From an uncultured Bacilli bacterium (GTDB lineage: Bacteria; Bacillota_I; Bacilli_A; RFN20; CAG-826): DNA of 35,360 nucleotides. The position numbers and the translations under genes were made by a program. Where the stretch lies: assembly GCA_944376605.1 (NCBI GenBank), contig CALWDE010000005.1, forward strand, positions 1 to 35,360, read 5' to 3'. Under the pieces are notes generated by a model. That model made no database searches. It was not told where the DNA came from and worked only from the letters and a program-made list of their open reading frames with translations. Below, piece by piece: positions 14,090 to 17,747 of this stretch (position 1 is its first letter; the number at the start of each line of letters is the position of its first letter).

Positions 14090-14863
14090 CTATCCTAAAG
14101 CAAGGTCTAACACCATCATCAAAGCAAAGCCAAAACAGAACGCTAAAACTAAGGCGTTAGAGTGTTTTTCTTCTTTGGCAGGCATCAAATCTTCAATAAC
14201 AGCATAAATCATCGCTCCTGCTGCAAAAGATAAAGCGTAAGGCAAAATCGGTTCCACATAAGGGGCAATTAATAAGGCAATCACAGCGGCAAGCGGCTCA
14301 ACTATTCCAGAAAGTAATCCAAGCAGTACCGCTTTCCCTTTTCCTTCGCTTTCTCTTAAAGGCAAGGAAGCGATAAGTCCTTCTGGGAAGTTTTGAATCG
14401 CAATACCCACGCTAAGCATTAAAGCGGACATCATACCAATGCTGTTATCGTATAAATAAGGAGAAAGACCTACTCCCACAGCAAGTCCTTCTGGAATGTT
14501 ATGAATGGTTAAAGCTAAGAAAAGCATCCATTCTCGCGACATCACACTTTTCTTACCTTCTGCTTGGTTGTCTTTCGGATGTAAATGAGGAACAAGTTTA
14601 TCGATGCCGAAAAGAAGAGCAACTCCAAAAACAAAGCCAACAAGCACAGGAACCCAGCCAAACCCAGGTAAATCAGCATTTCCTTCTTCCACTGCAGGAG
14701 AAAGAAGAGAAAAGAAGCTTGCCGCGACCATCACTCCCCCAGCAAAGCCGTATAAAATCTTCTCCCATAAGGCGGATAAAGGCTTTTTTAATAAAAAGGC
14801 CCCCATTGCCCCTAATGCCGAGCCGACAAAGGGCACAAGAACAATAATCGCTGCTTCCCACAT
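14090..14863 (-). CDS. ZIP-family divalent metal transporter
   Basis: A 257-residue inner-membrane protein with about eight helices, the GufA/ZupT-like branch of ZIP transporters that import zinc and related metals. The two signature helices are clear: HNIPEGLAVGVGLSP and NFPEGLIASLPLRESEGKG, whose His and Glu residues bind the metal. A His-rich loop between the third and fourth helices (VPHLHPKDNQAEG) is typical. The start is set at ATG 14863 (MWEAAIIVLVPF). The longer reading from TTG at 14902 would run into the terminator region and adds a poor N-terminus. There is no Shine-Dalgarno, but a -10 element lies 6 bases upstream, so translation is probably leaderless. The gene reads towards rex; no terminator is seen between them. 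Confidence 0.88.
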   Translation of the reverse strand: MWEAAIIVLVPFVGSALGAMGAFLLKKPLSALWEKILYGFAGGVMVAASFFSLLSPAVEEGNADLPGFGWVPVLVGFVFGVALLFGIDKLVPHLHPKDNQAEGKKSVMSREWMLFLALTIHNIPEGLAVGVGLSPYLYDNSIGMMSALMLSVGIAIQNFPEGLIASLPLRESEGKGKAVLLGLLSGIVEPLAAVIALLIAPYVEPILPYALSFAAGAMIYAVIEDLMPAKEEKHSNALVLAFCFGFALMMVLDLALG

Positions 14864-14869
14864 ATCTCT

Positions 14870-14899
14870 ATTTAACGCGCAGTAAGAGAAAGAAAGCAA
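14870..14899 (-). promoter_or_regulatory. Promoter of the ZIP gene, probably leaderless
   Basis: On the minus strand, TTGCTT (14894-14899), an 18-base spacer and TTAAAT (14870-14875) are followed by six bases and the ATG. A transcript start at or next to the ATG would fit the absence of a ribosome binding site. Confidence 0.45.
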
Positions 14900-14900
14900 C

Positions 14901-14927
14901 AAAAAAAGCCCTGCAAGAGGGCCTTTT
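14901..14927 (-). terminator. Intrinsic terminator after copA
   Basis: On the minus strand, GCCCT and AGGGC around a 5-base loop, extended by AAAAG/CTTTT with one bulge, are followed by a run of seven T. It lies 15-40 bases past the copA stop and separates copA from the ZIP promoter. Confidence 0.75.
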
Positions 14928-14941
14928 GAGAGAAAAGAAAC

Positions 14942-15142
14942 TTATTCCGCGCTATAGCCTTCTTCCGTAATGGCAGCAATTAAAGTTTCGCGTTTTAAGT
15001 CTTCCCCTTCCACTTCCGCTTTCTCTTCTTCTAGAGAAACGTGTGCTTCTTTTACGCCATTTACTCTAAGTAAAGCATTCGTTACGTGTTTCACACACAT
15101 AGGGCAAGTCATTCCTTTGACTTTTAAAGTAATTTTATCCAT
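14942..15142 (-). CDS. Possible separately translated CopZ-like copper chaperone (internal start in copA)
   Basis: Inside copA, in the same frame, a perfect AAGGAGGTG (15151-15159) sits 8 bases before ATG 15142. Translation from there gives a 66-residue HMA protein: MDKITLKVKGMTCPMC with the CxxC metal site, LRVNGVKEAHVSLEE, and the normal CopZ length. The site is as good as any ribosome binding site in the window and is not needed for copA itself. Either copZ was once a separate downstream gene that became fused in frame, or both a long and a short product are made. Production of the short form is inference. Confidence 0.5.
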   Translation of the reverse strand: MDKITLKVKGMTCPMCVKHVTNALLRVNGVKEAHVSLEEEKAEVEGEDLKRETLIAAITEEGYSAE

Positions 15143-17452
15143 TCTCTTTTCACCTCCTTCCTCTATAAAAGCAATTGGGCAGGCAGTTTCCTTTGGATAA
15201 GAAACTGGCTTCCAAAAGTTGATGGTAAGAGCGTTTAACACAACAAAGACAGAACTGCAGCTCATTGCAATTGCCCCAATCATTGGAGTAAGAGCAACGC
15301 CTCCTAAATAATAGAAAGCACCTGTTGCCAGCACTACACCAACTAAGTTATAGATAAATGCCCAAAATAAACCAAGCTTAATGGTAGTAAGGGTTCGTTT
15401 GGATAAAGAGATAGCGTTATAAACATCAAGTAGTTCATTCCGTAACAAGACAATATCCGCGGATTCTTTTGCAATATCGGATCCTGCACCAATAGCAATG
15501 CCTAAATCGCTAGAAGTTAAAGCAATTGCATCATTCACTCCGTCACCTACCATCGCCACTAAATGATGGTCATCTTGATGTAAACTTTTGACAATAGATG
15601 CTTTCTCTTCTGGTAAAACCTCTGCAATAACGCGGTCAATTCCTACTTCTTTCGCAATAGAGCTTGCCGTAAGCTTGTTATCTCCTGTGAGCATAATCGT
15701 CGTAATTCCCGCCTCTTTTAATAAAGATATGGCCTCTTTCGCGTGTGGTTTGCATTCATCTTTTAGTGCAATTAAAGCCTTATTTTCATGATCAATGCGG
15801 ACAAACAATACTGTTTTTCCTTCTTTTTCCATGAGATTTGCAAGCTTATTGAGGTCTTCTGGTACATTATCTTCAAATAAGCGGCGGTTTCCTACCTCCA
15901 CAAAGTGGCCATTTACAACCCCCTCTAGTCCTACTCCGCTACGCGATGTAAAAGAGGTAACGGGATATGATTCTTTCTTTTGGCGGTAGCTAGTAATAGC
16001 GGAAGCTAGAGGATGCTCAGAACGTTCTTCTAAAGCAGCGACATAAGGATAGGAGTTCTCCCCTTCCTTTAACTCTTTATAGTCGGTAACTTTCATTTTT
16101 CCTTCCGTCAAAGTTCCTGTTTTATCTAAGACTACAGTTTTCACAAAATGAGCTTTTTCTAAGATTTCCGCATTGGAGATTAATAAGCCAGATTGCGCCC
16201 CTTTCCCGCTGGAAACCATAATAGCAACCGGCGTAGCAAGTCCTAGTGCGCAAGGACAAGCAATCACCAAGACGGAAACAGCAAAATTAAAAGCCATTTC
16301 AAAGCTAACTCCCGAAGAAAGCCAGCCAATAAAAGTAGCAAGAGCAATGAGCAAAATCGTAGGAACAAAATAAAGAGAAATCTTATCTACAAGTTTAGAA
16401 ATCGGTGCTTTGCTATCCGCGGCCTCTTTGACTAAGCGAATAATGGTTTGAATAGAAGTATCTTGGCCTACCTTTTCTGCTCTCATATGGATATAGCCAG
16501 AATCTAAAATCGTAGAGCTATAAATTTTTGCCTCTTTCTCTTTATAAACAGGTAATGCCTCTCCTGTAATATTTGCTTCCATAAAGGAACCTTGTCCTTC
16601 CACAATCACGCCATCAACTGGTACAAGCATCCCTTTTTTCACAATTAAGATATCGCCTACATGAACCTCTTCTACTGGGATTTCTTTTTCCGTGTCTTTG
16701 AAAAGTAATAGAGCCTTTTTGGGCGCTAAATCCATTAAATCTTCAATGGCTTTTGTTGTTTTCTTTTTAGAGAGTCCTTCTAGATATTTCCCCAAAGAAA
16801 CTAACGTTAAAATCATGGCAGCACTATCAAAATAAAGATTATGTTGATAATGCTCTAGAGTAGCAAAATCTTGCTGTCCTAAAGCATAAGCCATCATATA
16901 AATGGCAAAAATGCCGTATATAAGAGAAGCAGAAGCACCAAGAGCTATCAAAGAGTCCATATTCGGCTCTAGATGAAATAAGCGCTTAAAGCCACTTACA
17001 AAATAATGGCCAAAGAAAATAAGGGAAGGGAAGGTTAAAAGAAGTTGAGTAAAGGCGTTTACTAAGGCGTTTTCTCTTCCCTCTAAAAAAGAAGGTAAGG
17101 GAATTCCAATCATCTGCCCCATAGAAACGTACATTAATAAAATTAAGAGTAAGACTGCTACTACTAAAATCCAGAAATCTTTTTCTTCGTAAAATCTTTT
17201 TCGCTTTTTTGGCGCCTCTTTTGCAGGGATTTTACCTCTTTCCTCCTCTAAAATCGCGTGATATCCGCCTTTTTCTACTGCAGCAATGATTTGGTTAGTT
17301 CCAACCTCTTTTTCTGCAAATTCTACTTCCATGGAATTAGTAAGAAGAGAGACGCTACAACTTTTAACTCCTTTTAATTTACTTACGGCGCGTTCCACGT
17401 GTGCTTGGCAGCTTGCGCATGTCATTCCCGTAACAGCAAAACGTTTTTTCAT
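14942..17452 (-). CDS. copA: Copper-exporting P1B-type ATPase with C-terminal HMA domain
   Basis: An 836-residue P-type ATPase for Cu(I) export. Domains in order: N-terminal HMA with MTCASC at 10-15, eight membrane helices, the actuator TGE near 296, the CPC copper motif at 399-401, the phosphorylated Asp in DKTGT at 443-447, an SEHPLA motif, GDGVNDA, and a second HMA with MTCPMC at the extreme C-terminus (771-836). A C-terminal HMA is unusual, since these domains are normally N-terminal. The start is ATG 17452, with GGAGGT 7 bases upstream, overlapping the csoR stop as ATGA; a GTG at 17461 is rejected. It is co-transcribed with csoR and therefore copper-induced. A strong internal ribosome binding site precedes the last domain. 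Confidence 0.93.
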   Translation of the reverse strand: MKKRFAVTGMTCASCQAHVERAVSKLKGVKSCSVSLLTNSMEVEFAEKEVGTNQIIAAVEKGGYHAILEEERGKIPAKEAPKKRKRFYEEKDFWILVVAVLLLILLMYVSMGQMIGIPLPSFLEGRENALVNAFTQLLLTFPSLIFFGHYFVSGFKRLFHLEPNMDSLIALGASASLIYGIFAIYMMAYALGQQDFATLEHYQHNLYFDSAAMILTLVSLGKYLEGLSKKKTTKAIEDLMDLAPKKALLLFKDTEKEIPVEEVHVGDILIVKKGMLVPVDGVIVEGQGSFMEANITGEALPVYKEKEAKIYSSTILDSGYIHMRAEKVGQDTSIQTIIRLVKEAADSKAPISKLVDKISLYFVPTILLIALATFIGWLSSGVSFEMAFNFAVSVLVIACPCALGLATPVAIMVSSGKGAQSGLLISNAEILEKAHFVKTVVLDKTGTLTEGKMKVTDYKELKEGENSYPYVAALEERSEHPLASAITSYRQKKESYPVTSFTSRSGVGLEGVVNGHFVEVGNRRLFEDNVPEDLNKLANLMEKEGKTVLFVRIDHENKALIALKDECKPHAKEAISLLKEAGITTIMLTGDNKLTASSIAKEVGIDRVIAEVLPEEKASIVKSLHQDDHHLVAMVGDGVNDAIALTSSDLGIAIGAGSDIAKESADIVLLRNELLDVYNAISLSKRTLTTIKLGLFWAFIYNLVGVVLATGAFYYLGGVALTPMIGAIAMSCSSVFVVLNALTINFWKPVSYPKETACPIAFIEEGGEKRMDKITLKVKGMTCPMCVKHVTNALLRVNGVKEAHVSLEEEKAEVEGEDLKRETLIAAITEEGYSAE

Positions 17453-17739
17453 TTTGCCCACCTCCGAATAAGTTCATAAGCTTCTTCCATAGCATGATCC
17501 CCGTCTTCTTGAACCTCTTTAACCACACAAGTTCTTAGATGACGTTCAAGCATATCTCCACTTAAAGAATGGATAGCTTTTTCTACCGCAGTTAATTGAT
17601 TAACAATATCCGCGCAGTAACACTCTTCCTCCACCATTTTGGAAATTCCCCGTAATTGGCCTTCCATTCTGGCAAGGCGGTGTAAGATTTTTTTCTTTTC
17701 TTCTTCACTTCTTTTGGTATGTCTTTCTGTGCATTTCAT
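17449..17739 (-). CDS. csoR: CsoR-family copper-sensing repressor
   Basis: A 96-residue all-helical repressor of the CsoR/RcnR family. The Cu(I) ligands C-H-C are present: Cys in EECYCADIVNQL, and His and Cys in ERHLRTCVV. The N-terminal basic helix and the RMEGQLRGI motif that contacts DNA are normal. Copper binding would release it from the operator just upstream and allow expression of csoR-copA. The ATG at 17739 is preferred over TTG 17745; a second ATG at 17734 is also possible. No good Shine-Dalgarno is present, and the -10 lies only 8 bases upstream. Its stop overlaps the copA start (ATGA). Confidence 0.92.
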   Translation of the reverse strand: MKCTERHTKRSEEEKKKILHRLARMEGQLRGISKMVEEECYCADIVNQLTAVEKAIHSLSGDMLERHLRTCVVKEVQEDGDHAMEEAYELIRRWAK

Positions 17740-17747
17740 GCGCAAAA

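Follow-up and report, generated by a model that had tools for sequence, protein, structure and literature searches.

Comparative evidence for an internal translation start in C-terminally HMA-fused copA genes that would yield a free CopZ-like chaperone

Introduction

The copper chaperone derived from copA in Escherichia coli is the N-terminal domain of the encoded protein. Work of 2017 under the names of Drees and Meydan reportedly describes E. coli copA, or CopA(Z), as one gene for both a copper pump and a copper chaperone. The chaperone is produced by ribosomal frameshifting (PMC7558416), and the title of a study cited there (Drees 2017) indicates that differential transcript formation contributes as well. 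A different principle operates in the SctQ family of type III secretion proteins (Spa33, SpaO and YscQ), where an in-frame internal ribosome-binding site (RBS) gives rise to a separate C-terminal domain (PMC7926512).

The copA gene analysed here, from a 35,360-nucleotide stretch of DNA of an uncultured Bacilli bacterium (hereafter, the window), shares features with both systems. As for CopA(Z), a single gene would give rise to both a P1B ATPase and a free chaperone that corresponds to one HMA domain of the pump, but whereas E. coli relies on frameshifting and the N-terminal domain, the window gene presents a C-terminal domain with its own Shine–Dalgarno (SD) sequence and ATG. As in SctQ, an in-frame internal RBS would give the C-terminal domain of the protein itself, this type of initiation being established for SctQ and predicted here; the proteins are however unrelated, and in SctQ the short form serves the long form as a structural partner. 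The copA-copZ operons of Bacillota encode the same two proteins in the same order, and the SD of copZ is frequently located at the copA end or within it, but there a stop codon stands between the genes, whereas in the window gene the frames are continuous and the start falls within copA. No earlier report of internal initiation in copA was found in the open-licence literature.

The copA locus

The features of the locus are collected in Table 1. CopA has the heavy-metal P-type ATPase core and the CPC membrane motif (in ACPCALG) of the copper subfamily, is encoded next to a CsoR-type repressor gene, and scores 560.6 bits against TIGR01511 (cut-off 397) and 605.9 bits against TIGR01525 (cut-off 346). 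The likely start codon is ATG 17452, with an SD pairing of -14.5 kcal/mol compared with -0.8 kcal/mol for GTG 17461, which is the start of the mechanically called open reading frame (ORF) and an unlikely candidate. The csoR stop and the copA start overlap as ATGA, and the final csoR codons contain the SD of copA. Directly downstream of copA, past a terminator-like hairpin (of a kind whose count in the region is not higher than in shuffled sequence), lies a gene for a ZIP-family metal transporter (window 14090-14902, minus strand).

Table 1. Features of the copA locus in window coordinates
Feature	Position	Strand	Description
CsoR-type metal-sensing repressor gene (csoR)	17449..17745	minus	Pfam PF02583, 7.7e-27
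copA	14942..17452	minus	P1B-type copper ATPase; HMA domain at N-terminal and C-terminal ends (profile matches, sequence)
Linker from last transmembrane helix to C-terminal HMA	15143..15193	minus	contains internal RBS; pLDDT <50, tail residues 54-68
Internal SD, AAGGAGGTG	15151..15159	minus	within copA; anti-SD pairing -18.2 kcal/mol
Nested in-frame ORF	14942..15142	minus	66-aa CopZ-like HMA domain, CPMC motif; start ATG 15142
Intrinsic-terminator-like hairpin	14903..14927	minus	directly 3' of shared copA/nested copZ stop; consensus match

The nested CopZ-like domain and its internal RBS

The nested ORF is complete, runs from MDKITLKVKGMTCPMC to EEGYSAE, and ends at the copA stop codon (14944-14942). 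It matches Pfam HMA with 4.7e-15 and the solved CopZ structures 2qif and 1cpz, and its best NCBIfam match is CopZ_AFE_1862 (NF047957), where the 82.1 bits fall slightly below the 85-bit cut-off; the full CopA scores 115.5 bits against the same model, above the cut-off, with residues 777-839, i.e., the C-terminal HMA domain, as the best stretch. In the AlphaFold2 model, a disordered linker is followed by an HMA-like fold whose first strand begins one residue past the internal Met, which places this Met exactly at the predicted linker/HMA boundary. The sequence, the Pfam and structure matches and the predicted fold all agree with a CopZ, i.e., a stand-alone HMA fold of about 60-70 residues with a GMxCxxC motif.

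Immediately 5' of the C-terminal HMA domain, the DNA reads GAGGAAGGAGGTGAAAAGAGAATGGATAAA, comprising the full SD, an 8-nt spacer (AAAAGAGA) and ATG 15142-15140 in the copA frame; an SD together with a start codon at a domain boundary within the ORF is the hallmark of internal in-frame initiation. The minus-strand sequence bears out the preliminary description, which had placed AAGGAGGTG 8 bases 5' of an in-frame ATG that opens a complete 66-residue CopZ-like domain, apart from its end coordinate of 15158, since the SD in fact reaches 15159. Among the 46 in-frame ATG, GTG and TTG codons of the copA ORF, pairing with the anti-SD is strongest at this internal ATG (-18.2 kcal/mol), followed by the gene's own start at 17452, and the matching anti-SD is present in the 16S 3' end GGATCACCTCCT found in the window genome. 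When the eight codons at this site are recoded synonymously, only about 1% of the variants reach equal pairing. Folding of the RNA at the internal start is not better than that of shuffled sequences (z 0.94), and a special RNA structure at this site was rejected on this basis. A frameshift origin of the E. coli type was also rejected: copA of the window has no slippery site that is soon followed by a stop in the -1 frame, and the sole slippery heptamer near the N-terminal HMA domain, AAAAAAG at codon 81, leads into a -1 frame that stays open for 72 codons.

We propose that ribosomes make two copper proteins from the csoR-copA mRNA. Initiation at 17452 would yield the complete CopA pump, which carries an HMA domain at either end, while other ribosomes would initiate at the internal SD and ATG 15142, yielding a free 66-residue CopZ-like chaperone that is identical to the C-terminal domain of the pump and could carry Cu(I) to it. 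Since the same arrangement is found in scores of distantly related pump genes (see below), a dual product from two initiation sites on one mRNA is very probable, and CsoR-type copper control probably extends to both proteins. As a variant of this mechanism, the internal RBS may serve a distinct short transcript whose 5' end lies within copA. We consider this rather unlikely: the contribution of differential transcripts to the E. coli chaperone, as suggested by the Drees (2017) title (in PMC7558416), provides a precedent, but an internal promoter was rejected because a scan for the sigma-70 consensus identified no promoter-like site on the same strand in the 1.6 kb that precede the internal ATG.

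Unfused relatives and origin of the fusion

In relatives with unfused genes, some of them from the window's own genus, copZ is positioned immediately 3' of copA, with a start that mostly falls at -4 to +20 nt relative to the copA stop and a comparably strong SD at or inside the copA end. In one such example, AAAGGAGAATGAATATG, the SD is supplied by the final copA codons AAA GGA GAA, and in L026 an in-frame TAA is located a short way 5' of the copZ ATG. The preliminary description had predicted relatives in which a separate copZ with a similar leader follows copA directly, and these loci provide them. The fused state most likely originated from a copA-copZ pair, with the copZ RBS at or inside the copA end, that lost the intervening stop codon; where the copA and copZ frames differ, an indel would be an alternative route. 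Selection would then have retained the internal start, as we propose, because it became the sole source of free chaperone, and the locus would represent a clear case of an operon that has become a nested gene. In a FastTree phylogeny of 187 CopA cores, in which some branches are long and the direction of change is not inferred, there are at least nine changes between fused and unfused states, and the fused state with start covers deep clades.

Comparative survey of fused copA genes

Family, order, class and phylum searches, together with named genomes (twelve Peptoniphilus records, one Lachnospiraceae and two Erysipelotrichaceae MAGs, and Candidatus Avacholeplasma), yielded about 158 distinct fused CopA tails, with Clostridia covered by the 16 named loci alone. 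An ATG occupies the same domain boundary, 5-15 codons 5' of GMxCxxC, in 136 of these genes and is absent in 22, of which four have a GTG nearby; the search profile was made from start-bearing sequences, Met column included, and start-less fusions may be under-sampled in these counts. In most of the fused genes an SD is recognisable by eye, encoded as KGG, KEE, KGE, KRR etc. The mean anti-SD pairing for all 136 is -10.5 kcal/mol, compared with -1.9 kcal/mol at 2945 other in-frame ATGs in the same genes and -6.0 kcal/mol for synonymous recodings. After dereplication at <70% identity, 82 lineages remain with a mean of -10.4 kcal/mol, against -1.9 kcal/mol at 1722 other in-frame ATGs (p 1e-49) and -5.5 kcal/mol for synonymous recodings, and in 80 of the 82 the pairing is stronger than the lineage's own synonymous mean (Wilcoxon 6e-15). 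Along the sequence, the pairing signal is greatest at SD spacing, for windows whose ends lie 1-7 nt 5' of the ATG, with no signal left by 13 nt, and the internal sites are more unpaired than other ATGs (0.69 vs 0.45).

The 82 lineages have a mean pairwise core identity of 49% and a linker identity of 18%, and their SD sequences occupy different codon registers (NNG-GAG-GNN in 52, GGA-GGN in 24 and NGG-AGG in 5). It is the nucleotide motif that is retained, while amino acids and codon register vary. This bears on the possibility that the fusion brought the old copZ leader and ATG along, and that these are now functionless linker codons. Unfused copA-copZ pairs with an overlapping SD make the copZ leader an obvious source, and the preliminary description had suggested a fossil of a recent fusion, but neutral decay should have removed SD and ATG across lineages as diverged as these. 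Retention in several registers, beyond what the protein sequence requires, and at a strength exceeding that of synonymous recodings, leaves the recent-fossil reading unsupported and makes a functionless leader very improbable, whereas the other part of the earlier proposal, internal initiation leading to a free CopZ-like product, receives strong support from the comparative evidence.

Equally little probability attaches to a constraint at the protein level, by which a Lys/Glu-rich linker and a Met at the domain edge are structurally wanted and the resemblance to an SD is accidental. Codons for K and E (AAG GAG) do produce SD-like DNA, and the synonymous mean is already -5.5 kcal/mol, but about 5 kcal/mol comes from synonymous choice, the linker solutions differ, the signal is limited to SD spacing, and Met is missing at penultimate C-terminal HMA domains and in start-less genes. 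Slowing of elongation by SD-like codons is a proposed and debated effect, and a pause of this kind that aids membrane insertion or folding of the C-terminal domain, with no initiation, is hardly credible here, as it would not need the fixed-spacing ATG that is yet present in most genes, and start-less genes usually also lack the SD and may carry a separate copZ.

Returning to internal initiation, we think it likely that a previously undescribed dual-product copA is widespread in many Bacilli and some Clostridia-type Firmicutes, with a chaperone that has no gene of its own and would be made only by internal initiation, as a second solution that is independent of E. coli frameshifting at the other protein end. 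Pump and chaperone from one gene would then have arisen twice, by different translational tricks and at opposite ends of CopA; the free chaperone would be explained for genomes without any copZ, and automatic annotation would probably overlook one protein in many genomes. Genes that are fused with start, fused without start and unfused form a natural series for asking why the amounts of pump and chaperone are linked.

Natural controls and exceptions

Fifteen CopA proteins (L060, L079, L231 and those of twelve Peptoniphilus loci) combine two C-terminal HMA domains with an internal start, and in all of these the ATG with SD precedes the last HMA domain only, never the penultimate one. In the Peptoniphilus loci (L103, L105-L108, L111-L117), the SD before the last HMA domain is mostly AAAGGAGAAGAT, which is followed by the ATG. 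A close relative of the window gene, L006, has GTG, itself a start codon, in the place of ATG, rather than a different Val codon, and keeps the SD AAAGGAGGTG.

A separate copZ is located directly 3' of the fused copA in four genes (L168, L170, L180 and L194), and the boundary ATG is found in none of them, the codon in L180 being GTG. No adjacent separate copZ occurs in the 119 genes with ATG and strong SD, and comparison with the four start-less cases gives a Fisher p of 0.003 when related genes are counted as independent. The start-bearing fused gene of G311, whose SD is weak, has another HMA ORF close behind it, which was detected by Pfam search and is uncounted in the adjacency scan. Some 5 kb 3' of two further start-less genes, L058 and L061, there is in each case a separate HMA ORF of 100 aa.

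In the window genome, CopA was the only HMA protein found, and in eight other start-bearing genomes (G049, G057, G065, G081, G133, G232, G391 and G446) CopA was likewise the only HMA ORF. Without an internal start, these genomes would therefore have no free HMA chaperone. Distant small HMA ORFs are also present in some start-bearing genomes. In G307 and G230 the fused CopA lacks the start, and no second HMA ORF was found in either genome; a free CopZ is therefore not indispensable everywhere. The fused genes L192 and L193 (G484 and G307, respectively) have ATT at the start position and lack the SD, and G307 possibly represents a loss of free CopZ. In family f20 of the same class, a clade (L195, L196, L197, L203 and L241) lacks the internal start and carries two or three HMA domains at the C-terminal end. 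A frameshift or an assembly error divides the copA homologue L078 (G041:C2:722200-726800) into two ORFs (474 and 376 aa), and the internal copZ start is undamaged in the second ORF.
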